Source: Arabidopsis thaliana (Eukaryota > Streptophyta > Magnoliopsida > Brassicales > Brassicaceae). Taken from it: a stretch of 64,000 bases of DNA. Each line of letters starts with the position of its first letter. Positions within the stretch are counted from its first letter, which is position 1. This document shows positions 1 to 16,674 of this stretch, piece after piece. The stretch is from the NCBI RefSeq assembly GCF_000001735.4, contig NC_003076.8, positions 14,821,835 to 14,885,834 of the forward strand, read 5' to 3'. Made by a program: the position numbers and the translations under genes. Below the pieces are notes generated by a model. It saw only the letters and a list, made by a program, of their open reading frames with translations, searched no databases and was not told the origin of the DNA.

Positions 1-246
1 CTATTCAAATTGCGATAGTGGTTTAATTATAGAGAGCTTCGAAAACAAAAAAAATATCCAAAACAGCATATCAACATCTAGCCGTGTACATCACCTCAAG
101 TGTTATTCACAATGTTGTACACTATTATCGGATAACGTATCAAGATCATATCTCTTGAAGCGTCTAAACTGCATATGTACTGCTTGAACATAACTAAAAT
201 TACCACCATATTTATAGTTATACTATCTTTGAAATGACTACCTCTC
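1..246. other. Intergenic DNA, no gene seen
   Basis: AT-rich sequence with no convincing coding exon or RNA gene. It ends where the T-tract of a minus-strand retroposon begins. Confidence 0.5.
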
Positions 247-616
247 TTTTTTTTTGTCACAAGAGTGTTGATTTTATTATATCCAACAACAAGCCAAGAT
301 CAACAACATTCAAACAAAGCCAAATTACAACTAAACAAAATCCAAAACTTTTTAAAATGAAAAGTCCAACTAGAAACCCAACAAGAGAAAACCACAACAG
401 GAAGAAAAAAGAGGTCTTGCATTGGAGGAAAGATCACGTGTCACGAGCAGATCCTTTGATGAAGACACGTGGAAGGAGGAAGATCTGGGTAATCGTCGGT
501 CGTCGTTGAAGATGTTTGTCGACTCCAATGAAACCCAAAACCACTGGAATATGTATGATGATCGCAAGTCAAATCGTCGATCCATCAAGGTTCACAATAA
601 ACTAATGGTAGCAATT
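247..616 (-). mobile_element. Non-LTR retroposon fossil, 3' part
   Basis: Read on the minus strand, this ends in an A-tract (T-run at 247-255) after a GT-rich tail of the kind seen at 3' ends of Arabidopsis LINEs and Sadhu-type retroposons. The body is interrupted by the copia element inserted at 617-4007 and seems to resume at 4008. No reverse transcriptase frame is present in this part, so it is a truncated LINE or a non-autonomous retroposon. I did not find convincing flanking target duplications. The family assignment is tentative. Confidence 0.45.
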
Positions 617-621
617 GTCAA

Positions 622-809
622 TATTGGGAGATCTCCATATATCTTAGCTATAAAATAGGAAAATATCTTTGTGGAGATTAGGAAATTGTATAGCTTCCTC
701 TCCACGTGTAGTTAACCTAAATATTCTCTTGTAAATATATCAAGGTGTAATCGTATGAAATCAATAAGAGAAAACGTTCATCTAAACCTAGCCGCTTCTA
801 GTTTCTACA
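622..809 (+). repeat. 5' LTR of the copia element
   Basis: It starts TATTGGGAGATC and ends TTTCTACA, and is nearly identical to 3816-4002. It contains a TATA-like stretch (TATAAAATAG near 650). It is followed directly by the TGGTATCAGAGC primer-binding site. Confidence 0.9.
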
Positions 810-879
810 TGGTATCAGAGCCTTGCCTTTGATCCAACGTTTTCTTCTCTTGTTCGTTTGTTGTTTTTTATCTCTCCTT

Positions 880-1870
880 ACAAATCAATATGTTCTTTGG
901 ACTTCATATAAGCCCATTCATCGAAGCCCATCTCTAATACTCCCCTTCAAGATGGACAGTGGAGATCTCGAACACTCATCTTGCCAAGTAAATATTGCAA
1001 CTGATTTCGCCCAAGAGCCTTGGTAAGAAAATCGGCTAATTGCTCTGTCGTACGAACGTGTCGAGTAGACACAATTCCGTCTTTTATCCCATCTCGAACG
1101 AAATGACAATCTTTCTCAATGTGTTTCGTACGCTCGTGAAATACCGGATTAGCTGCAATGTGTAGTGCAGCTTTATTATCACAATGAAGACTTATTGATT
1201 CTGGATGAGGAACTTGAAAAATGAGAAGCAACTCCTTGAGCCATAAGAGTTCTTGATAAGTATAAGCCATAGCTCTGTATTCAGCTTCAGCGGAAGAGAG
1301 TGATACCCGTTCTTGCTTCTTTGTTTTCCAACATATAGGGGATTTGCCGAGTAAGACAACATAACCAGACAGTGAACGACGCGTTTTTGGACATGTTTGA
1401 AAATCTGAATCACAATAGGCATCTAGATGAAGATCATCATCGTTGCTTAGTAATAAGCCTTGTCCGCAAGTCCCTTTAAGATATCGTACTAGGCGAACTG
1501 CTACATCCCAATGACGTGTACGTGGTTGTCTGAGAAATTGCGCTAGAAGATGAACTAGATAGCAAAGGTCTGGTCGGGTGATAGAAAGATAAATCAACCG
1601 GCCAACTAACCTGCGGTATTTGGTTGGTTCATGATAGAATTCACCGTCTTCTTTGGCTAGAGTATGATTCTGTTCAATAGGAGTGTCAACGGGTTTAGCT
1701 CCAAGAAGTCTGCATTCAGAGATGATATCCAAAGTATATTTGCGTTGCGAAATATAAATCCCCTGCTTTCCTCTAGAGACTTCGATCCCAAGAAAGAATT
1801 TTAGAGGACCTAAATCTTTCATGTGAAAGCATTCACTCATATATGCCTTAAACTCTGCAGTTAGCTTGAT
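880..1870 (-). pseudogene. Antisense copia fragment (RNase H region) nested in the element
   Basis: The minus-strand frame 947-1840 encodes the end of a copia polyprotein: the tail of reverse transcriptase with the motif HMKDLG, the linker, and RNase H with the AYCDSDF, SSAEAEYR and ERTKHIE signatures. Its protein differs clearly from the plus-strand copia protein at 1940-3808, so it comes from another copia family. Downstream on the minus strand, a purine tract and what looks like an LTR start occur near 935. It is a fossil fragment that arrived by nested insertion or ectopic recombination. Confidence 0.85.
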
Positions 1871-1939
1871 GTAAGGGGGAGTGATTCCCCAGAAGAATCT
1901 AGTGTCACTGAAAACCCGGTTTCTCTTCCACCACCGGAT

Positions 1940-3808
1940 GTGTCACATGAAAAGGATATACCGGTTTCAACGGTTGAGGCTACACAAACGCAGAATCCGA
2001 CCGTGTTGTTGGAAAATTCTCATGATCCAGAAGAAGAAAGTGATGAATTGGGTAAAGGAAAACGTCAAAAATTTACCTCCGTTCGTCTAAAAGGTTATGA
2101 GACTTATAATGCTCGCTGCACTGAAGAACCCCATCACGTCTCACCCGTCTTTGATCCAGTTTCCTCTTATGCGGTCCAAGGTACCACTTCTTATCCTCTT
2201 ACAAGTTACATCTCTGATGATATGTTTTCCCCACAGCATAAAGCTTTCTTAGCAGCTCTTATTGATGGTGCTGAACCACCATCATATAAACAAGCTATGC
2301 TTGATCCTCGATGGACAAATGCTATGGGAACAAAAGTTGGTGCTCTTGAAGAGAATGGTACATGGAGTATTGTTGATTTACCTCCTGGAAAAGAAGCGAT
2401 TAACAATAAGTGGGTGTACAAAATCAAGCTTAATGCCGATGGCTCTCTTGAACGGTATAAAGCTCAATTAGTCGCATGTGGCAATCGTCAAGTTGAAGGT
2501 GAGGACTATAATGAAACGTTTGCTCATGTGGTTATGATGAAGACGGTCCGTAGTTTGTTACGTATTGTGGCAGCCGAGAAATGGGAAGTTCACCAAATGG
2601 ATGTTCACAATGCCTTTCTCCATGGTGATTTAGAAGAAGAAGTATACATGAAATTACCGGTTGGTTTTCGTCATTCAGATCCGAAGAAGGTTTGTCGTCT
2701 CCATAAGTCTCTATATGGGCTTAAACAAGCCCCGCGGTGTTGGTTCTCTAAGCTCTCTTCGGCGTTGCTAAAGTTTGGATTTGTTCAATCTTATTCAGAC
2801 TACTCTTTATTTATTCTCTCACGGGCTGGTGTGGAGCTTCGGGTTCTTATTTATGTTGATGACTTGTTGATTTGTGGTAATCATCCACGTATGCTTCAGA
2901 GTTTTAAAGAGTACTTGGAAAAATGTTTTCACATGAAAGACTTGGGTAAAGCAAAGTACTTTCTTGTCATTGAGATTGCCCGAAATTCAGAAGGTATATA
3001 TCTTTCTCAAAGAAAATATTCTCTTAATCTTGTTACTGAAGCTGGACTTCTTGGTTGTAAGCCCGCTGCAACTCCGATGGAACAAAATCACAAGTTGGAG
3101 ATGAATGAGAGTGAGTTTCTTCCTCGACCTGAAGAATATAGGAGGTTGGTTGGTCGTCTCATCTATCTTCTTACCACTCGGCCGGAGCTGTGTTATTCTG
3201 TCCATATCTTGTCAACGTTTATGCAAAAACCACGTGTTGATCATTGGGAGGCGGCGCTCCGTGTAGTGCGTTATTTGAAAGGGTCTCCGGGTCGTGGTGT
3301 GCTACTAAGTTCGAATTCAGATCTTACTTTTACTGCATATTGCGATTCAGATTTTTCGACATGTTCCACGACACGTCGTTCTTTGAGTGGATATGTCATG
3401 TTTTTGGGTGGTTCTCCAATTTCTTGGAAGACAAAGAAGCAAGATGTTGTATCTCATTCTTCGGCTGAAGCGGAATATCGTTCAATGCGTAATGCGTTGA
3501 ATGAAGTTCGTTGTTTAAAACAGTTATTAGAAGACTTGGGATATCCACAACATCAACCGATCAAGTTATATTGTGATAGTCAAGCTGCGATACACATCTC
3601 CTCTAATTCGGTTTTCCATGAGCGAACTAAGCACATTGAAAGAGATTGTCATGCCGTTCGCGATGCTATTCAAGCTGGGATACTTACGATGGTTCACGTC
3701 AATACACATGATCAAATAGCTGACTTGCTTACTAAAGCTTTGGGTCGTATTCCGTTTGAAGGTTTGTCATCCAAGTTGGGCATTTGTGATCTTCATGCTC
3801 CAACTTGA
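1940..3808 (+). pseudogene. Copia reverse transcriptase/RNase H region
   Basis: This long plus-strand stretch encodes copia reverse transcriptase (NNKWVYKIK start, QMDVHNAFLHG, the YVDDLL catalytic box) and RNase H (AYCDSDF, SSAEAEYRSM, ERTKHIERDCH). It stops just before the purine tract and the 3' LTR. It is part of the fossil element. The upstream copia domains are not recognisable here, so it is listed as a relic rather than a gene. Confidence 0.85.
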
Positions 3809-3815
3809 GGGGGAG

Positions 3816-4002
3816 TATTGGGAGATCTCCATATATCTTAGCTATAAAATAGGAAAATATCTTTGTGGAGATTAGGAAATTATATAGCTTCCTCTCCACG
3901 TGTAGTTAACCTAAATATTCTCTTGTATATATATCAAGGTGTAATCGTATGAAATCAATAAGAGAAAACGTTCATCTAACCTAGCCGCTTCTAGTTTCTA
4001 CA
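3816..4002 (+). repeat. 3' LTR of the copia element
   Basis: Near-identical partner of 622-809. It follows the polypurine tract GAGGGGGAG at 3807-3815 and is followed by target duplication GTCAA. Confidence 0.9.
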
Positions 4003-4007
4003 GTCAA

Positions 4008-4336
4008 TTTCAGAGCTCTAGAGATAATCTTCATCTTCATTGAACTTTAACCTCAAAAATTTTCCTAAATAAATTGAAAGCAGTTTTCAACCTCAGGCTT
4101 CATTAGAAAACAAGCCAAAAGTCGGAGATAGAGGCACGCCAAAAACAGAGCTAGGCAAAGCTACTGAAGAAGCTGGCAATGCCGGAAGAGAGCCGGCCAA
4201 TGCCACTACGGAAGCTAATCGATGCCGAAAGAGAAGGCGTCGCTAAAGAAATAGAGCGATGTCGGAAAAGTGAGGATTTCTCTCTCTCAAAAGTTGAGAG
4301 CGAGAATATTTTTTCCAACCAATAAGCACAAAACAA
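4008..4336 (-). mobile_element. Non-LTR retroposon fossil, 5' part
   Basis: Appears to continue the minus-strand retroposon of 247-616 across the copia insertion site. It has a CT-rich leader-like composition and a short open frame without recognisable domains. The outer boundary near 4336 is approximate. Confidence 0.35.
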
Positions 4337-4473: not shown

Positions 4474-4482
4474 CAAATTCTT
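4474..4482. repeat. 9-bp target site duplication of the MULE, left
   Basis: CAAATTCTT, repeated exactly at 12427-12435. A 9-bp duplication is characteristic of Mutator-superfamily insertion. Confidence 0.85.
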
Positions 4483-5196
4483 GAACTTTTATCACTTATG
4501 CCACTTTTTTGAAAAAACTGATCTGGACTGCCATCAGTTAATCTGAATGCTACCGAAAATGTGATATACCAGTTGTACCCTTAATGAGTTGATTAAAAAA
4601 ATGAAAAAGAAATTCAAAAGCTAAATAAAGAAAATCGAGATCCTCAGTTCTCTCTCCTTCGTCGTCGTGTTCTTCTTCTTTCGCCGACGTTCATCTTCTT
4701 CGTCGGCCACCATCGATTCTGGCCGCCGCCGACTTGAAATCCGTCGTAAAAGGCAACGAATTAGGTCAGTTTCTTCTCATATTTCCTTTGACATTGGTGC
4801 ATTGTGATTTTAGATTGGGATTTTGAATTATATATAATTCCCAAATTCAATTTGATAGTTTGATGATTGGTTTGCAAAGTAAAGAGTAATCGATTAGAGG
4901 TTGCCGAAACGTTATTTGAGGTGATGAGCAAAGAAATGTAGGTTGAATGTGAGTTGAATTTGAATTCCGAGATTTCATATTAAAGATTTGGGGGTTTGTG
5001 TTTGCAAAGTTTAGATTAACCAATTAGTTTAACGAATAGGTATGTATTAACATTGGAAATCAATTGAAAGGTAACGAATTAGGTTCAGTAGAATCGAGTG
5101 CGACGAGAGATTGATTTCAACGTATGATAAGAGTACATGTGGTATAACTATTAAAATGTTTGATTGGAGTTGAACTGGTTGTATTTTGAGGAGCGA

Positions 5197-7564
5197 TGAA
5201 GAAGAAGATCCACACTAAGGTACATTTTGATTTGGAGGATACTATTTTGAAGTGAATGAGTGGATTGGTAAAAATTCACTATATGCTATATCGTTTAAGA
5301 CGAGTAGTTTGGAGAAGATAACATATTCGATGTTAGTTGACAAGATCATGAAGAAGGTTGCCATTGATGAAGCTTTTGTGAAGTTGAAACTGAGTTACAA
5401 TCTGTCTAAAGTTAGGAGAGAGACATATATTGTAGATGATGAGGATGTCTTCATATTTTTAACAGAATCTGATGAAGAGAGTCGGATTTTGCATGTGGAG
5501 GAATTAAATGGTATAGGAGTTGAGAGGAGAGAGGAAATTTCTGTACCGGAGCGTCGAAGTTCAGTTGGTGTAAATGTAAGAGAGGATGATGTTTTAAATG
5601 AAGTATGTGAGATGGTGCATGAGGGATATGATAATGATGTGAATGATTGTGAGAATGTAGTAGGTACGGAGATCGTGGCTGTCGAAAGGCCGATGGAAAG
5701 GCCGGTGAATTCTGTTGAGGAAGAAGATGAGGATGATAGGATTGATTATGATGATATTCACGATATTCCACGAAGTGTAGAAGTTACTCCGCAGGTTATA
5801 GAATGGGATGATGGTACGGGTATTGAAATTGGTCAAGAATTTTGTTCAAGGGAGGCTGTGTGGGAATTGGTTAACAGAGCTGCAAAGCAAGAAGTTTTTG
5901 GAGTCTATACTATTAAGTCAGACCCGTTGAGACTTATGCTACGATGCCGCCAAGCTTCTAAAGGGTGTACTTGGTATCTAAGAGTTGCGAGAACTAAGAA
6001 ATCTCATTTTTGGAGTGTTAGAGTGCATAGAAAGATGCATACATGCTCTCGGAGTGTTGAGACTACAAGCAACAGTATACAGCGAGGCACACCAAGATTA
6101 ATAGCATCGGTTTTGCATTGTGACTATCCCAGAAATTTAAAGACCCCAACTCCAAAAAACATTATGTCGATTGTAAGAGGAAGACTTGGGGTGCATTGTT
6201 CATACTCCACTGCCTTAAGAGGCAAAATGCTACATGTTAGTGATGTGCGAGGGACTCCGGAAAGAAGCTACACGATGTTATTTTCTTATCTTCATATGTT
6301 AGAGAAGGTAAATCCAGGGACAGTAACTTATGTGGAGTTGGAAGGAGAGAAAAAGTTCAAGTACTTCTTCATTGCATTAGGCGCTTGCATTGAAGGTTTT
6401 AGGGCAATGCGGAAAGTGATAGTTGTGGATGCAACTCATCTTAAAACTGTGTATGGTGGGATGTTGGTTATTGCAACAGCACAAGATTCTAATCATCATC
6501 ATTATCCACTTGCGTTTGGAATCATTGATAGCGAGAAGGATGTAAGTTGGATTTGGTTCTTAGAAAAGCTGAAAACTGTATATTCGGATGTTCCCTGATT
6601 GGTCTTTATTAGTGATAGGCATCAAAGCATAAAGAAGGCTGTCAAGACGGTGTACCCGAATGCGCTTCATGCAGCTTGTATATGGCATTTGTGTCAAAAC
6701 ATGAGAGATCATGTGAAAATTGACAAGGATGGAGCTGCTGACAAGTTCAGGGATTGTGCTCATGCATATACTGAGAGTGAGTTCGAGAAAGAGTTTGGTC
6801 ATTTTACAAGTTTATGGCCTAAAGCTGCTGACTTTCTTGTGAAAGTAGGGTTTGAAAAATGGTCGAGGTGCCATTTTAAAGGAGACAAGTATAACATTGA
6901 CACTAGTAATTCTGCGGAGTCCATTAATGGTGTGTTTAAAAAAGCGAGAAAATATCACTTGTTACCAATGATTGATGTGATGATTTCTAAGTTTTCTGAA
7001 TGGTTCAACGAGCATAGGCAAGATTCAGGTTCTTGTCCAATCACAGCACAAGTTGTGCCTACTGTGGAGAACATATTGCACATTAGATGTCCAGTTGCAG
7101 CCAAATTAACTGTGTTTGAGCTTAACAGTTACAACCAAGAATACAACGTGATTGATCTCAACTCGGTAAGTTTTCTGGTGGATTTGAAAATGAAAAGTTG
7201 TTCATGCAAATGTTTTGATATAGACAAGATCCCGTGTGTCCATGCTATGGCCGTAGCAAGGCACCTCGCCCGCAAGGAAGGGAGAAATGTGAATATAACC
7301 ATCTACGGACTCTGCTCTGTGTATTACTTGATAGAGAGTTGGGCATTGGCCTATTACCAGACGTTGTATGTAGTCCCACATGAGTCGGTTTGGGTTCTTC
7401 CTACCCATATTAAAGAGTTAGTTGCCTTTCCGCCGGAATACACACCAAAAGGACCAGGACGAAATCAAGAGAAGCGGTTTCCATCAGCTGGTGAAGCGCG
7501 AAAGAGGAGAAAATCGCAACATGGAATAAACTTGGAGGCTTGGCTGCAGCCTGAGGAAGATTAA
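5197..7564 (+). pseudogene. MURA-type MULE transposase, interrupted
   Basis: This DDE transposase of the Mutator superfamily would cut and join the ends of its own element in the nucleus. The main frame runs 5252-7564 and is broken by one in-frame TGA at 6596-6598. The first plausible ATG, at 5197, is in another frame, which suggests a single-base loss near 5231-5235. The order is an N-terminal plant MuDR-type region, an acidic linker, a zinc-binding MuDR region, then the transposase core with Asp in VVDATH (codon 6428), Asp in VFISDRH (codon 6614) and Glu in NSAESING (codon 6917). A SWIM zinc finger follows (CSCKCF...CVHAMA, about 7199-7252), and the tail is basic. Apart from two lesions it is well preserved. 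Stop readthrough or splicing around the TGA cannot be excluded. Confidence 0.88.
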
Positions 7565-8433
7565 GTCTGATGCAGAAAGGGTTCAACCGGAACAACCTGG
7601 CCAACTCCAGAAAGGGTTCAACCAATACAACTAAGTTCATTTGTATTTGTATTATATTATTTGTAAGTGTGATGTACTATGTTTTATGTTTTCGTATTTG
7701 TATTGAATTCTTTGCAAGTTTATTGAATTATTGCAAGTTTAATGTATTTTTTTAAGTTCAACTAAGACAACTGATATATGTATCTGTATTTTAAGGTTAA
7801 CAAAATGATAAAATAATTCTCAATATTTTCAGCTATTATCAACATCTAAACATTGAATAAATCCAAAATATGATATTACAACATTGTTATTACTAAACTT
7901 GATCATAAACTGGTTTCCTAATAAATCACCTATGTATAACAAAGAACATATAGTTCATGATTGTCCAATGTACATACGTTATGTATGAAAACAGATATTT
8001 ACTAAATATGATTCAATCAACACTTATTAAAATCCATTAATATGTTAAAACTTATGGGACCAACTAAAAAAATGAGTTGGTTTTTCAGATTCAACTTCAA
8101 AAACACAAAATTTAGAATAGTTCAACTGTTTGTGATTTCGGCCAACTGTACATATATATACAACTATGTGTATTCTGAATATTCTAATAAATAAGTTTTT
8201 TAAAAAATAGACCCCACGACTTGCGTTCACACTACGATTATTGCGTTCACACTACAAAGTTTCTACCTATTTATTCTCGTTCATCTCTCTTTCTCTCTCT
8301 CTCTCTTCTATTTCTCTCTCGTTCTTTCTCTCTCTCGTTCTTCTCTCTTCTCTTCCTTCCCAACATCGGCGACGACAACTGAAATTAGGGTTCCAATTAT
8401 CCGCCGCCGCCGACGACAACAACAACAACCAAG

Positions 8434-8618
8434 GTATGATATAGGGTTTCTAAAGGGTTTCTAGCCACCGTAATTAGTAGATCTAGGGTTTTTTACGGGT
8501 TTCTAGCCGCCGTAATTAGTAGATCTAGGGTTTCTTACGGGTTTCTAGCCGCCGTAATTAGTAGATCTAGGGTTTATAGCGTTCATGATTCATATCTCTT
8601 TCTTTCTCTATTCTGTAG
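8434..8618 (+). promoter_or_regulatory. 5' UTR intron with three 42-bp repeats
   Basis: The donor AAG/GTATGA at 8434 and an acceptor TGTAG directly before the ATG at 8619 define a leader intron of the GRF-like gene. At 8455-8580 it holds three head-to-tail copies of a 42-bp unit, each with AGGGTTT (telo-box-like) and GTAATTAGTAGATC. A repeat-bearing leader intron could affect expression. That role is inferred. Confidence 0.7.
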
Positions 8619-9126
8619 ATGCCCTATAGTTACTCTCAACCATCCACGTCCGAAGCTAGTTGGAATAGTGGAGAGGCGAATGCCGATGCAAATTGGGGGG
8701 TTCCAGAAAAATGTTTTTGTGGTAAGCCTGTAAAACTTGAAGTGTGCAAAACTGGTTACAGGCAAGGCGACAGAGTCTACAAATGCTCAATGCTTAAAGT
8801 AAGTTATTGTGTTTTCATTTCATTGGAACAACAAAGTACAAGTGAATTATATTTATGAAGTCTTCTCTCTTTCGCAGGCTGAAGAGTACGAGTCCCGAAA
8901 CCACCTTATTCAGTGGTGGGATCAGGCGGTAACTGAGGAGCTTGAGATGGTAAATCACAAACTTGATTCCGCACTAAGACATGGACAACTAGCATGCAAT
9001 CATGCTTTGGAGTCCATCCGGGAAACTGTTCATCTCATGCAAGGCGAAATTGAAACCCTTAAAGAAAGGTTACTCGCCAAAGAAGTCGAGATTGATAGGC
9101 TTAGGGCATTACTTTCTACATGGTGA
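8619..9126 (+). CDS. GRF-like zinc-finger/coiled-coil protein of the MULE
   Basis: Two coding exons, 8619-8798 and 8878-9126 (142 codons plus stop), are joined in phase by a 79-bp GT-AG intron. The N-terminal half carries CFCGKP followed by spaced cysteines (VCKTG, VYKC) and then HLIQWWDQA, matching the C-x-C and W-W-D pattern of GRF zinc fingers. The usual fourth Cys is not apparent. The C-terminal 75 residues are heptad-rich and should form a coiled coil. Proteins of this layout are frequent in plant MULEs and in host genes close to them. It lies just downstream of the transposase on the same strand and inside the same element. The frame is intact. GRF fingers bind nucleic acid in other proteins, but its job here is unknown. 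Confidence 0.75.
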
Positions 9127-9235
9127 TTATGATGTGTTTTATGTTATTGAGGATGGTGTATGGCATTTGAACCTAATTATGTTATGTTTCTGGATTTTAT
9201 GTAATATTTGAACCTAATTAGACATGTATTTACCT

Positions 9236-9427
9236 ATTTTAAGTTATGTGTATTGACCGGCCAACTGGGACAACTTAGCTACTCTTGTATTTTAAGTTAT
9301 GTGTATTGACCGGCCAACTGGGACAACTTAGCCACTCTTGTATTTTAAGCTATGTGTATTGACCGGCCAACTGGGACAACTTAGCCACTCTTGTATTATT
9401 GACCGGCCAACCGGGACAACTTAGCCA
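9236..9427. repeat. Noncoding tandem array with core GACCGGCCAAC
   Basis: Four copies of GACCGGCCAAC(T/C)GGGACA lie at 9255, 9308, 9361 and 9401 (spacings 53, 53, 40), each followed by ACTTAGC. The array fills the gap between the convergent GRF-like and DUF1985-type genes. The shorter core GGCCAACT also occurs elsewhere in noncoding parts of the element, near 7599 and 8140. Such arrays in VANDAL elements are targets of their VanC proteins. That role here is inferred. Confidence 0.8.
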
Positions 9428-9597
9428 AACGTTTTGATTTTAATAAAATCCTAAAACACATAAACCATTTCAGAAAATAAGTTTGTCCTTTACACATAAA
9501 CTACGCATAACATTTCCAAATACACAAAAAAAGTCCTATTTCTCCAAACACCTACGAGTCCACACACACACATAAGCAAGAAAGAAAAGTCAAAGTC

Positions 9598-12021
9598 CTA
9601 ATTCTTCTGTCTCTTCCTCGTTTGCTTCCCCTCAGCTGTAAACTCTTCCCCCTTATACTTGGAAGGTTTCCTTCCACGTTTTTTCCCAGATTCCAGAGTA
9701 GGACCAACATGCTTTCTCTTCTTCTTCGATATCTGCTTCTTCTTCTTCTTCTTCTTATCCTCTTCATCGGACTCATCGCTGCCATCACCTACAAAAATAT
9801 GTAACCAAACATGTAAGAACTATTGTGAAAGCATCACTACACAAAAGTTCAACAAAAACTCACTTAGAGACTCAATAGTTGGAGGTGCTGGGTCACGGCT
9901 TCCACTGTGAATAACCAAGGCCTTGCTCTGAGTATCCCTTGGCTGATAAGACGGTGGCACAAAATCAGCAGCTGAACCAGGACGCATATCTTCATAACGG
10001 GCTTTTTCTGCCTCTTTCTCAAGCTAATCTGCCACATATTCCTCTATTCCTTGTACTCTCACACAAATCCGCTTGATTTCGCTATCCATCACAGCAAGCT
10101 TGTCCGTGAGCTTGTCAAATCCTCTCTCCATAGCTTCCTTGAACGAGAGAATCGATGTCCCAGGGATTTCAGGTTCAGGTACAGCTGGAACATCATCAAC
10201 AGTTTCAATACGTCTACCATCAATGTCTGCTTGGTAGAGACTACGCCAAAAAATCTTCTTTTTCTCTACGATAAGCCTCTCTCTCCAGCTATCAACAATT
10301 GGATCGATATATCCAATACCATCATCAACATGCTTCTCTACAACGCGTGACAACATTTTTCTCTCATCCATATCAGGTTCCAAGATGCTTGAAATATCCT
10401 GTCAAGTAAACATATATTTCAAACACCACAAAGATTATAAACATAGATTTCAAGAGAACAAAGCTAACCATTATATCTCCAAGTGCTTCATTTATTTCTT
10501 CCAAAGTAAATCCCTTCATGCAACTTTCACTGAACTTGTGCTTGCACATTCTTGGACGTTCCTTGTCTGCAGGTACAGCTTCTCTAAATCTCTTCCCAAG
10601 CTGCAGAATGCACTCAAATGCCAGAATCTAGACATAAAAGTAAATGCAAGTTCACAATAACAAAATTTAGCCACTCATATAATTTACTCGACTACTTACC
10701 TCAAGTAGAGTAATAAATCCATAAAAAGCAGTCTGTGCCTTGGGTTTCACCACACCTTTCATGTTCTTCATTACTCTCCGCACCCCTTCCATACACTGCT
10801 CAAAGGAAAAACGTCCCCACGGGAATGTCTCACAAGCTCTGATATTATCCACAATCCTAAGCAGCAACTCCTCTATCTTCGAATCCCCTTTAGAATCAGC
10901 TTTCATAACCTTAGCTAAGAATAACAGAATTGCCAACTTCAACCTAGCAGTAGACTTCTCACTCTTAAACTCTTCCAGCTTCTCTTCCACGTCTTTAATC
11001 TTGATGTCCTCAGTCCTTTTAAACAACTTCTCAACAAACTTCAAACTGCCTAAAGTCTTATAGTTTTTTGGGTACTCACGGCAGTTCAAACCGGTCAACA
11101 ATGCATGCTCTTTAATTAAGTACCTTATAGGTACTCCATTGACAACAAACCAACACTCTCTCGCCAATTCTGTCTTAGCCGTGCGAACCATAAGCATCCA
11201 CATGCCTTGAATCATGTGATTTGGCTCCTTAGGCATGTGGAATATGTGCTTAAATTGGTCATGATTCTTAAACCACTTCAGTTCTGCATCCAAAGTCTCT
11301 ATAAATTCCACTGTTTGTACCAACTGACACCTCGTTCCTATCTTACACACCTTCGTGTAGGTAGTTGGATCAAAGTACATAACTTCTGGCGGCAATGGTT
11401 GATTATCATCATCATCATCATCATCATCCTGCATATTCTGCGGTAGGTTATCGTCATCACCATCCTGCATATTCTGCGGCAGGTTATCATCATCACCATC
11501 ATCCTGCATATTCAATTCAAAATACTTTCAATTCCACATTAACTACCTAGTTGTACTACTTGTTCCTGAATGACCATTCACAAATTTACGACCTAGTTGT
11601 ACTACTTGTTTTATCTGAAGCACCATTCACAAATCCAATCATTTACCAATGCATAATATCCTAAAACGAGCCTAATCCAAAAAATAACGGTCTTCTCTCA
11701 TACCTTATTTGCTCCATCATCATGTTGAACAACTGCATTCGTTGCCTCCTCTTCTTCTGCACAAGAATCGGCATTTGGGTCTGAAAGATCGTCAATTGAA
11801 TCCCATGCGACGGCGTTTGAATTACCCAAATCGGCGGCGTCACAATCGCCGGTTGTAGGCTGAATTTCTCCGGCTTCCTCTTCTGTTGTTAGAAGCTCTA
11901 CGCCTTCTTCATCTCTTTGGGGAATCTCGGCGGCGGTCTCTTCGACTGATGGAGGAATTTCGCCGGTCACTTCAACCCTAGTTGATTCATATTCTCCAGA
12001 TGAGTCTTTTACTCTATCCAT
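9598..12021 (-). pseudogene. DUF1985-type MULE accessory gene, one premature stop
   Basis: Five coding exons on the minus strand (11704-12021, 10700-11503, 10469-10627, 9864-10398, 9598-9788) join in phase to about 668 codons with good GT-AG sites. Exon 1 is acidic. Exon 2 starts with Asp-rich repeats encoded by a GAT run, then a DUF1985-like domain (FIETLDAELKWF, WFVVNGVPIRYLIKEHALLTGL, RFSFEQCMEGV). Exons 3-4 hold FTLEEINEALGDI and a predicted coiled coil. The last exon is Lys/Arg-rich and nuclear-localisation-like. One TAG at 10024-10026 interrupts an otherwise open gene. DUF1985 is typical of plant MULE-encoded proteins, some fused to ULP1 proteases, but no protease is present here. By position and layout it could correspond to a VANDAL VanB/VanC-type accessory gene. 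This is analogy, not shown. Confidence 0.75.
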
Positions 12022-12426
12022 TGGAAAATAAATTTGCGGATATGAAAGAGACAAAGACGAACGAAAACGGAGAAGAAAGAAGAAGAGAAGAGATTGATTT
12101 TTCCGGTGAAATTGGTGTCGTCGGAGACGAGAGAAGACGACGACGGAGAGAAGAGGAAGAAGTCGAGAAGTTGAAAAGGGGAAGAACATTTTTTACTTAG
12201 GTTTTTTCTGTAGTTTCTAGGGTAAATAATATAACTGGGGCGAATATTTACATTTTTTATTGGTGCCTAAATCTAACAAATTAAGTTTTCTTGTAGTTTT
12301 CGTGGTTTCGCAAGAGTTTTTCGTCCTTTCCTCATTTTTCGATTTTAATAAAAATCAATAATATTATTCCAAGAATGGCACGAGTGATTATTTCTTCTCA
12401 AATAGTGGCATAAGAGGTGAGCCTTC

Positions 12427-12435
12427 CAAATTCTT
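12427..12435. repeat. 9-bp target site duplication of the MULE, right
   Basis: CAAATTCTT, an exact copy of 4474-4482. It lies 67 bp upstream of the ATG of the first DUF577-type gene. Confidence 0.85.
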
Positions 12436-12502: not shown

Positions 12503-14380
12503 ATGGCAATGGAAGAATCCGATTCCGGTGAAACAGCAACGGCAAAAATTTCGTCTCTTACGTTGAAATCTAGGGCTATACTTGCGACTCCAAGCAACGA
12601 AGAAATAGCGATTATCGTCGAACAAGTCTATACACCTCAAGAATCCGACGAACACAAATCAGCGCGAGCTCTGTTCGATTTCTGCGTCTCTACTTTCCCA
12701 AATTGCTTAACCCTAAAGCTTCTCACGGTGTATCGATTTTCTTCCGACGACGATTTCCGATTACGATCGATCTGTCTTCTAACTGAAACTCTAAAAGCTC
12801 AGCGATTCGAACTCTCTCTTGTCACTCTCCATGAAATCAAACCACTTCTGATTTCTTGCTTGACAATGCAAAACCCTAAATATTGTGACTCAAAGATTGT
12901 GAGAATCATTGTTTCTTTAGTAGCTGATAAAGTTGGTGTCTGGGAAGAGATGAGTGATTGTATACTCTCACTTGTTGTCAATGATCCGATTAGGGCTTTT
13001 GAGGTCTTTATCCAATTGCCATCATCACTCTACGGAGAATTCATTTACCGGTTTCTGCAGAATTTTCTTGATGAAGTTTACAAGATTTTGCTTCGTCCTG
13101 TGGAATATGAAGTTGAAGTTTGGATCTTGGCTTTGAAATCTGCTGTTAAAATGGGGATTTTGCTTATGGATTCAGAAATGAGATTTGATTTGACAAGAGA
13201 CATTCTTCACATTGTTTGGAAATGTTCTCTTGATGTTGTGTGGAATGATATGGAAGAAGAGTTTCTGCTAAATGGACTTGATTCTCTTGAGATTTTCTTG
13301 GTGGAAGACGCGAACAAGTTTAAGTGGAATAGTGATCAATGCAGGTTTGTGGCAGAGTTTGCGTTTAAGATTTCAGATATCGGAAAAGAGGCCAAGGAAG
13401 TTGCTTGGAAGATCTATCGAATGGTTACAAAGCTGGATAAGTATGTGCACAATCCAGCTTTCGAATTTAGCCCTTTTCGCAATGAGAATAAATATCTTGG
13501 AGTAGATGATGTTTGTGACTTAGAAGACATTTTGGATGCTTTATCTCCAGTGGAAATCATGAGAAAGGTTTCAGTAGGTCAAGTTCCTAATAGGTTGAGA
13601 GAGATAGCTATCACGAGACTTTATGAGTTATTTTGTGATCACACTGCTGGGAAAGGGGATATAAGTATTTCAGAGATTAGAGAAATCCAGCCGTTGCTCA
13701 TCTCTTGCCTTGCAGAGATAGGAATTCCTGAGAGCACGTTTAAGATTCTCTGTCAGGTGGTGTTCCATGTTTTACATGAGTTGTCTAGCTACCAAGAGGA
13801 CAACTGGTTTGGTCTATGGGACTACATTGCAACAGAAAGCAAAACAGAGTTCATGAAGACAGTTTATATCTTCCAGTGCTTAACAATGCGGCTCGATGAT
13901 AAAGAGTTTGTGATTCATGCGATTAATAATCTTCTTCCAGAGATTCACAGACACCTAAACCCACCAAGAGACTTGTTGGTAGATGAAAATTGCTGGGTCT
14001 TGGCGTTTACGGGTGCGTTCTGTGCAGCAATTCACTTGATAGAGATCTCAAGTCATGCTCAATACTTGAAGGAGATTGCATATAAGATGATAGATTCAGT
14101 GAGGGAGCTTGTGGGAAGAGGAATGGAAGTTGAGCTTGTGAGGAGAGCTTTCATAAATATGGAAAGCATTGTGGAGAAACAATATGACTGTTACACTACT
14201 AGTGACTACAGATTCGTTAAGGGTTTGGTTTGGAAGCTCTATGCAATCAAAGACATCAGCGTGGAAACTCAGTGTGTGTTGTGGAGAATCAACGTGATTC
14301 TGGAAAAAGTGCAGGAGGTAAAAGAGCTCCCAAAGAGTGACCTTGATTGGCTGAACCAACCCGAGACTTTAGGCAATTGA
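12503..14380 (+). CDS. DUF577-family protein, copy A (625 aa)
   Basis: Intact single-exon gene of a family I recognise as the Arabidopsis DUF577 group. Its function is unknown. The protein is helix-rich, without signal peptide or membrane segment, and looks like ARM/HEAT-type repeat protein. Family landmarks are LKLLTVYRFSS, LHEIKPLLISCLTMQ, KAFEVFIQLP-like FEVFIQLP, then a second half with EIREIQPLLISCL, TVYIFQCLTM and CWVLAFTGAFCAAIHLIE. The ATG sits in the leader TTTTCTCGGGAAAATGG shared with copy B, which supports this start. It is the most divergent copy. Its upstream DNA has been replaced by the MULE ending 76 bp before the ATG, so its promoter may now lie partly in the transposon. Confidence 0.85.
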   Translation: MAMEESDSGETATAKISSLTLKSRAILATPSNEEIAIIVEQVYTPQESDEHKSARALFDFCVSTFPNCLTLKLLTVYRFSSDDDFRLRSICLLTETLKAQRFELSLVTLHEIKPLLISCLTMQNPKYCDSKIVRIIVSLVADKVGVWEEMSDCILSLVVNDPIRAFEVFIQLPSSLYGEFIYRFLQNFLDEVYKILLRPVEYEVEVWILALKSAVKMGILLMDSEMRFDLTRDILHIVWKCSLDVVWNDMEEEFLLNGLDSLEIFLVEDANKFKWNSDQCRFVAEFAFKISDIGKEAKEVAWKIYRMVTKLDKYVHNPAFEFSPFRNENKYLGVDDVCDLEDILDALSPVEIMRKVSVGQVPNRLREIAITRLYELFCDHTAGKGDISISEIREIQPLLISCLAEIGIPESTFKILCQVVFHVLHELSSYQEDNWFGLWDYIATESKTEFMKTVYIFQCLTMRLDDKEFVIHAINNLLPEIHRHLNPPRDLLVDENCWVLAFTGAFCAAIHLIEISSHAQYLKEIAYKMIDSVRELVGRGMEVELVRRAFINMESIVEKQYDCYTTSDYRFVKGLVWKLYAIKDISVETQCVLWRINVILEKVQEVKELPKSDLDWLNQPETLGN

Positions 14381-14796: not shown

Positions 14797-16674
14797 ATGG
14801 CAGAATCCGATCCCGAAGGAATCGCAATGGCGGAATCTTTGAATCTTCAGTTGAAAGGGAGAGAGATTCTTGTGAGTGAAAGCCATGAAGAACTAGCGAT
14901 GATCGTCGATAATCTCTTTAAGCGTGAAGACTCCGAAGAATATAAAACATCGCGAGCTCTGTACAAGTACTGCGTCTCTTATAACCCAGGTTGCTTAGCC
15001 GTAAAGCTTCTTAAACTCTATCAATATTCTTCTAATGCCGTTCTCAGATTACGATCAATCTATCAACTCTCCGAAACTCTCACAGATTTGAGAAATCGCA
15101 ACTTCAAACTATCTCTCGACTCTCTCTATGAAATTAAAGGGGTTTTGATTTCATGCTTGACAATGGAAGAACCCAAAGAATCTGAAATCAAGATCCTTAG
15201 AAAAATCGTGTCTTGTGTAGCTTACAATGTTGTGGAGTTGCATAAAGGCAAATGGGACGAGCTTGGTGATTGTATCTTAACGCTAGTGAATAGCAAAGAA
15301 CCTGTCAAGGCCTTTCACGTCTTTATCGATTTGCCACCAGTCTACAAGAGTTTCATAGACAAGTTTAAGCACAAAATCTTAGATGAAGCTAGTAATGTCT
15401 TTCTTGATCCTTATAGAGTTGAAGATTGGAGCTTGGCTTTACAAGTTTTTGTTAAAATGTGGATTCAGCTTGTGGATACAAAGATGATGTTGGTGTTAAT
15501 AAAGGCGTTAATGGAGATTCGGATTACATCTGTTGTGAATTCAGTGAAGAAGCTAGTGGAGAAGGAAAGAGAAGAGTTTTTGGTAAGAGGGCTTGAAGAT
15601 TTCGAGAGATTCTTCTCGCGAGAGATGAATCTGTATAAGTATAGTAAGGATCAATGCCATTTTGTGTTGGATTTAATGGTCAAGATCGAAGGAGTCGGGA
15701 CACATTTGACCAAGGAGGTTGTGGGGAAGATCAAAATGCTGGTTACAGAACCGGAGAAACCACAGGATGATGATCTTAAGTATAGTAGAGAAGAGTTTGA
15801 CCGTGGCTGGTATGATCATTTGAAGAGTTTATCTTCACTGGAAGTGTTAAAGATCTTTGCTTCCTCTGATCTTGAAGATAGGTCCAGAGAGATGGCAATC
15901 AGACGACTCAATGTCTTACTATCTGATAACACTTCAGAAAAGGTGGAAATAGGCATTGAAGAGATGAGAGAACTGCAACCATTGCTTATCACTTGCTTAA
16001 AGGAAGAAGGAGTCTCTTTCAGTATGTTCAAAGTCCTAGCTGAGGTGGTGAACCATGTTGCATATGAGATGTTGATCTGCCAAGAGGAGACATGGTACGA
16101 TCTACGCGATTATATAGCATCGAGTACAACAGAGTTTCAGAGAGCGGTTTATATCTTCCAATGCTTAACAATGGATTTTGATGATGAAAAGTTTTTGTAT
16201 CCTGTGATGGATAGCCTTTACCAAGAGATAATCACAAGGCTAGACCCACCAAGAGAGGTGTTGGTAGACAACAGTTGCTGGGTTTTTGCGTTTACGGGTG
16301 GCTTCTGTGCAGCAGTTCGCTTGATAGAGGACCCAGGTTACGGTGACGACGTTAGTGAGATTGCATATAAGATGATAAATTCTGTGAAAGAGCTTGTGGA
16401 AAGAGGAATGGAAGTTGGGCTTGTGAGGAGAGCTTTCAGAGATGTTGAAATCATTGTGAAGGACCAATTGGAATGGTACAGTACAAGCGAATACAAACTC
16501 GTTAAGGGTTTGCTTTGGAGACTCTATGCAATCAAAGGCATGAGATGGGAAAGTAAGTTTGTGTTGTGGAGAATCAACGTGATTATCGATAGAGGAGTGA
16601 AAGAAGAGGAGAAAGAGCTGCCACAGAACGAGTCTGATTGGCTGAACCGTACTGCTGATGAGAAGATTAAATAG
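14797..16674 (+). CDS. DUF577-family protein, copy B (625 aa)
   Basis: Intact single-exon member of the cluster, function unknown. Two homologous halves are visible. Residues about 100-180 (SLYEIKGVLISCL, IVSCVAYNVVELHKGKW, KAFHVFIDLP) resemble residues about 380-460 (EMRELQPLLITCL, VVNHVAYEMLICQEETW, RAVYIFQCLTM), an old internal duplication. The conserved C-terminal block reads VDNSCWVFAFTGGFCAAVRL, then MEVGLVRRAF, LVKGLLWRLYAIKGM and LWRINVI, closing with ESDWLN. The first ATG aligns with copy A. A second in-frame ATG ten codons on matches the start of copy D. Copies C and D are its closest relatives. Confidence 0.88.
   Translation: MAESDPEGIAMAESLNLQLKGREILVSESHEELAMIVDNLFKREDSEEYKTSRALYKYCVSYNPGCLAVKLLKLYQYSSNAVLRLRSIYQLSETLTDLRNRNFKLSLDSLYEIKGVLISCLTMEEPKESEIKILRKIVSCVAYNVVELHKGKWDELGDCILTLVNSKEPVKAFHVFIDLPPVYKSFIDKFKHKILDEASNVFLDPYRVEDWSLALQVFVKMWIQLVDTKMMLVLIKALMEIRITSVVNSVKKLVEKEREEFLVRGLEDFERFFSREMNLYKYSKDQCHFVLDLMVKIEGVGTHLTKEVVGKIKMLVTEPEKPQDDDLKYSREEFDRGWYDHLKSLSSLEVLKIFASSDLEDRSREMAIRRLNVLLSDNTSEKVEIGIEEMRELQPLLITCLKEEGVSFSMFKVLAEVVNHVAYEMLICQEETWYDLRDYIASSTTEFQRAVYIFQCLTMDFDDEKFLYPVMDSLYQEIITRLDPPREVLVDNSCWVFAFTGGFCAAVRLIEDPGYGDDVSEIAYKMINSVKELVERGMEVGLVRRAFRDVEIIVKDQLEWYSTSEYKLVKGLLWRLYAIKGMRWESKFVLWRINVIIDRGVKEEEKELPQNESDWLNRTADEKIK

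Follow-up and report, generated by a model that had tools for sequence, protein, structure and literature searches.

The 53-bp tandem array at positions 9235-9427 of the window (the whole stretch of 64,000 nucleotides of Arabidopsis thaliana chromosome 5 that we analysed) is probably the target, or docking, site of a VANC6-type anti-silencing protein within a VANDAL6-clade MULE. Each repeat carries a published recognition word, so that the array most likely belongs to a known class of docking sites. Our own analysis contributes the array, the motif in every one of its units in the window, the conservation of the unit and the recurrence in the unlike array of a diverged VANDAL group. An anti-silencing motif had been proposed here from the sequence, and a noncoding array beside a DUF1985 gene does fit a VANC target. 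However, by the text of Hosaka et al. (2017; PMC5735166), the word is GGACAACT/AGTTGTCC and not the GACCGGCCAAC/GGCCAACT of the original prediction. GGACAACT lies a few bases beyond GACCGGCCAAC/GGCCAACT in the same 53-bp unit.

The tandem array and its host element

The array (no strand assigned; chromosome 5 positions 14,831,069-14,831,261) consists of three full 53-bp units, which a fourth follows at a spacing of 40 bp. Tandem Repeats Finder (TRF) reports 3.1 copies of period 53 with 98% matches over 9235-9397. Four copies of the 11-mer GACCGGCCAAC start at 9255, 9308, 9361 and 9401, as had been described, but the regular spacing claimed for them extends to only three of the four. These are the only exact GACCGGCCAAC sites in the window. 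Allowing up to two mismatches the excess is less striking, with 8 matches against a mean of 3.25 and 3 of 100 shuffles reaching 8. The shorter core GGCCAACT occurs at seven sites where 0.85 are expected, a number reached in none of 100 shuffles. Three of these are in the array, whose fourth copy has GGCCAACC instead; two, at 7599 and 8140, lie elsewhere in the element, where the core had been said to recur, and two more (1600 and 18134) are outside it. Every array unit in the window contains GGACAACT, the reverse complement of AGTTGTCC, so that motif counting places the CC-type VANC6 motif AGTTGTCC on the minus strand at 9268-9275, 9321-9328, 9374-9381 and 9414-9421.

The array sits inside a MULE that occupies 4483-12426 on the plus strand; the VANDAL6-clade name is our own assignment. 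Homology to 10 other loci starts at about 4480 and stops at about 12430, and the 9-bp target-site duplication CAAATTCTT flanks the element at 4474-4482 and 12427-12435 (no strand assigned). Among the 10 other loci, the copy at C3:10.81 Mb is truncated and that at C5:12.47 Mb interrupted. A duplication of at least 9 bases is present in seven of the nine other copies with a span, the remaining two being without a clear end. A 9-bp target-site duplication is a defining feature of VANDAL elements. Together with the MULE transposase (VANA) and a protein with both DUF1985 and DUF287, it bears out the VANDAL-type MULE that had been predicted. A copy at C4:5.943-5.952 Mb is about 93-97% identical over long pieces. 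The family may thus be VANDAL6 and, going by gene order, AT4G09370 (VANC6) may be the copy near C4:5.944 Mb.

Three genes were recognised in the element. The VANA-like transposase frame (Plant_all_beta, MULE and SWIM domains) runs from 5234 to 7564 on the plus strand and has an in-frame stop at 6596-6598. A two-exon VANB-like gene follows on the same strand at 8619-9126, its model drawn by eye from the open reading frames. Its first exon contains cysteines and its tail is coiled-coil-like; no Pfam family scored above the cut-off, and both exons are present in all 10 other loci. The VANC-like gene lies on the minus strand at 9601-12010, with about five exons in a model also drawn by eye, one small exon having search matches that represent DNA homology only. 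It encodes DUF1985 (10667-11515, E value 4.2e-26) and DUF287 (10024-10401, 1.8e-25) and has an in-frame stop at 10024-10026. The VANB-like and VANC-like genes are convergent and flank the array, in agreement with the original prediction, which had also placed a DUF1985-type protein beside it.

Both stops are sense codons in all nine alignable other copies (the tenth, truncated, is outside this alignment), and several other copies have stops of their own elsewhere. With its transposase and VANC-like frames both interrupted, the window copy is probably passive. Since the neighbouring VANC-like frame has a stop, the partner of the array probably acts in trans.

The surroundings of the array and of the element hold further features. 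Just upstream of the VANB-like gene, at 8438-8575, AGGGTTT words stand in a tandem repeat of 42 bp (3.3 copies). About 76 bp beyond the right end of the MULE is the ATG of a DUF577 gene (12503-14380), which has a second one (14797-16674) as its neighbour. Remains of a Copia-type retrotransposon (RVT_2) are found at 1-4020, with long open reading frames on both strands and, by eye, similar stretches near 626 and 3818.

The original prediction also offered a transposase recognition site, a reading that the position of the array does not favour: the element extends for about 4.75 kb on the 5' side of the array and for 3.0 kb on its 3' side, and no exact GACCGGCCAAC stands elsewhere in the window. 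Short tandem sites bound by the transposase are known in other DNA transposons, and a VANA-binding array needed for transposition would resemble them. Yet the array is between convergent genes and not subterminal, and the loci differ in their number of units, from 3 to 6. We consider such a function extremely unlikely, and rejected it because the array is central in the element.

Published VANC words in the element

The text of Hosaka et al. (2017; PMC5735166) describes two target motifs of VANC6, AGTTGTCC (CC-type) and AGTTGTAC (AC-type), as tandem repeats in the noncoding DNA of VANDAL6 and its relatives. The same text names DUF1985 and DUF287 as the VANC domains, and reports that VANC6 binds a motif-dense region in vitro, that its target families are hypomethylated, and that the AT9TSD1 repeat is also a target. 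For VANC21 and VANDAL21 it gives the word YAGTATTAY.

The window element contains AGTTGTCC five times, four in the array and one at 8983 inside VANB-like coding DNA, and AGTTGTAC three times, all on the plus strand. One AGTTGTAC is in the 5' terminal noncoding region (4571-4578). The other two start at 11549 and 11595 in the first VANC-like intron (11549-11602), and this pair is present in nine of the 11 loci. Over the 10 copies counted, each has 4-7 AGTTGTCC, 1-4 AGTTGTAC and 3-5 AGTTGGCC, against a background per 10 kb of 0.29, 0.21 and 0.29, respectively. This background comprises 139,545 bases, namely flanks and the rest of the window (56,016 bases), and derives from eight elements. Among the 10 that have a span, the two with no clear end were omitted, as was the truncated C3:10.81 Mb copy, which has no span. 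Within each copy AGTTGTCC is on a single strand (10 of 10). Thus, as expected of a VANC6 target, AGTTGTCC and AGTTGTAC are dense in noncoding DNA and stand in tandem repeats of one orientation. A VANC21-type target was rejected, YAGTATTAY being absent from all 10 copies of the family. A diverged copy, L031, presumably Hiun from its position, has 16 YAGTATTAY and none of the VANC6 words, which indicates that counting separates the two specificities.

Compared with the VANC6 target arrays of VANDAL6, 7, 8 and 17, the window array shares AGTTGTCC and AGTTGTAC in noncoding repeats and an element with a VANC (DUF1985, DUF287) gene; no difference was found in the text of PMC5735166. According to the same text, VANDAL21/Hiun with VANC21 is also similar in having noncoding tandem arrays, a DUF1985 protein and words in one orientation per array, but its word, YAGTATTAY, does not occur in the window family. 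GACCGGCCAAC/GGCCAACT are not among the VANC motifs published in that text. Among the papers that we searched for these arrays, only the text of PMC5735166 has AGTTGTCC together with VANDAL.

Conservation inside the unit

Diversity was calculated over 36 near-full units from 11 loci; the other 15 of the 51 units, each differing at more than 12 of 53 positions, were left out. Mean diversity is 0.009 in GGACAACTTAGC and 0.019 in ACCGGCCAA, compared with 0.120 in the CTG hinge between them and 0.103 in the rest of the unit, i.e. about 11-fold and 5-fold lower than the rest. We tried four block lengths, and the least diverse blocks were ACAACTTA at 8 bases (permutation p 0.042), which merely overlaps the published word, GGACAACTTAGC at 12 (p 0.015), TGTATTGACCGGCCAA at 16 (p 0.006) and CCGGCCAACTGGGACAACTTAGC at 23 (p 0.017). 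These values, from 0.006 to 0.042, are optimistic because the units are related within and between loci. Of 50 units, 43 have an intact GGACAACT, 41 an intact ACCGGCCAA, 36 an intact GACCGGCCAAC and 31 an intact GGCCAACT. Both the GGACAACTTAGC and ACCGGCCAA blocks stand out; the 8-base GGCCAACT core, which extends into the variable hinge, does not. Since all words rise together within the array, conservation cannot fully isolate one of them. CpG retention was considered as a sign of constraint, and 49 of 50 units have kept the CpG of ACCGGCC. In an alignment of nine of the 11 elements, retention of majority CpGs differs little between noncoding DNA (0.902, 77 sites), coding DNA (0.947, 131 sites) and the array (0.956, 5 sites).

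Could the array be a neutral minisatellite that expanded by slippage and simply moved with the transposon? The arrays do differ in copy number and appear homogenised, and the 11 loci all represent copies of a single family. Against this explanation, two blocks are much less diverse than the rest of the unit, and one of them holds an independently published motif; we regard neutrality as unlikely. One finding speaks against the VANC6-target explanation: in four loci one unit has lost AGTTGTCC but retains GGCCAACT (three loci) or GGCTAACT (one). The arrays at C1:8.458, C2:10.088, C4:5.946 and C4:14.283 Mb are split in two, with a few hundred bases between the parts, and in each of them the opening unit of the second part is without AGTTGTCC and retains ACCGGCC-like sequence.

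Read on the minus strand, the unit shows AGTTGTCCC and then AGTTGGCCG, two similar words 9 bp apart. A bipartite site, to which a VANC dimer or VANC and a second factor would bind, is therefore possible. It would be a refinement of the VANC6-target explanation, and both can hold. Two conserved blocks around a variable hinge are what such a site would leave, and the array of the diverged group also has AGTTGTCCC followed by AGTT at 9 bp. However, several AGTTGTCC sites in the diverged copy L030 have no second word, the array units are homogenised, and we found no VANC motif of this form in the published text covered by our search. We therefore hold the bipartite reading as a tentative one. A rather doubtful extension of it is that the window family alone added the second word, TTGGCCGGT, 9 bp on from AGTTGTCC, thereby narrowing the set of VANDAL copies that its VANC activates. 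If true, VANC specificity would be evolving by the doubling of a word and not by its replacement.

Genome-wide recurrence and other VANDAL groups

Words were counted in 119.66 Mb (7 contigs), with each word written backwards as a control. The enrichment of the core in related copies, for which the original prediction had called for a genome-wide count, was borne out. Exact GACCGGCCAAC has 47 sites (control 6), of which 36 are in 11 loci with the same array and 11 are scattered singles, so that GACCGGCCAAC clusters in one family only. By eye, and among scored candidates only, no transposase or DUF1985 match lies within 50 kb of any scattered site, which is no proof of absence. AGTTGTCCCNGTT has 50 exact sites (control 6). 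By eye, 36 of them were assigned to the 11 loci of the window family, nine to five loci of a diverged VANDAL group and five elsewhere; one of the five diverged loci was judged from transposase pieces and from AGTTGTAC pairs a few kb away.

The transposase of this diverged group (the L030 group) is 48-50% identical to that of the window family, or 46-56% in the pieces at the fifth locus. Its array, AGAGTTGTCCCAGTTATCTCT, has period 21 and lies just inside a VANC intron. It shares AGTTGTCCCAGTT with the window array but is otherwise unlike it in unit, period and position in the element, and is without AGTTGGCC. L030 contains eight AGTTGTCC and no AGTTGGCC. The L029 group is closer by transposase (56-65%); each published word occurs there once, and its arrays are different, of the GTTCAAATGGTTCA type. 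For each of the two groups one copy was examined in full, and the other copies as search matches. VANDAL anti-silencing in eudicots was reportedly studied by Sasaki et al. in 2022.

The L029 arrays lie at 2870-3135, 4823-5009 and 7156-7346, as if the target word had been replaced. CC-type array words are on the VANC sense strand and AC-type words on the opposite one, both in the window (9235-9427 and 11549-11602) and in L030 (3386-3446 and 4699-4865); in L030, additional AGTTGTCC occur on the other strand.

Pairs of words were also searched for. All 14 AGTTGGCC pairs at 20-50 bp in the genome are in the arrays of the window family (control 1). Pairs of AGTTGTCC at 13-43 bp number 19 against 14 for the backwards control, and VANDAL elements hold 14 of the 19; since a gap of 13-43 bp does not include the 53-bp period, the search is not comparable to that for AGTTGGCC. 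The 8-mer alone therefore fails to mark these elements, whereas the longer shared word does. AGTTGTAC pairs number 30 (control 17), and 17 of the 30 are in VANDAL elements. Outside the listed VANDAL matches, paired AGTTGTAC is also found in a dispersed repeat at C2:14554556, C3:18309607, C4:10960205 and C5:3945754, with related copies at C4:6114525 and C5:18414549. We presume that this repeat may be AT9TSD1.

These counts bear on whether a family-specific VANC recognises GACCGGCCAAC itself as its core, the adjacent AGTTGTCC being incidental. Its concentration in the 11 arrays would suit that role, and ACCGGCCAA and the other block are conserved to a similar degree. Nevertheless, the VANC6 motif in the text of PMC5735166 is the neighbouring word, AGTTGGCC is absent from L030 despite its eight AGTTGTCC, AGTTGGCC pairs are confined to the arrays of the window family, and just 36 of 50 units retain the T that ends GGCCAACT. 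We find this very unlikely and, on word counts, pair search, unit diversity and counts of intact units, rejected GACCGGCCAAC as the sole core.

A probable docking site for VANC

If the array is a VANC6-type target, a VANC protein from a working relative would bind each unit through its one AGTTGTCC, and other parts of the element through AGTTGTAC. The bound protein would remove local CG methylation, and non-CG methylation would also be removed, by spread. This loss may counter silencing of the whole element by RdDM. According to PMC10398659, which also names public bisulfite data for VANC6 lines (DRA006000), RdDM and VANC share their noncoding target regions. From the words and stops described above, we infer that VANC6 or a close paralogue binds the window copy, which would now be solely a passive target.

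Our findings tie the array to the known arms race that sets plant transposons against DNA methylation, and correct the word that should be tested. A 13-mer is common to two VANDAL groups with unlike arrays, while the arrays differ in the group with the closer transposase, each group being represented by one copy. These VANDAL elements therefore offer a concrete set for asking how the target specificity of VANC proteins is kept or changed.
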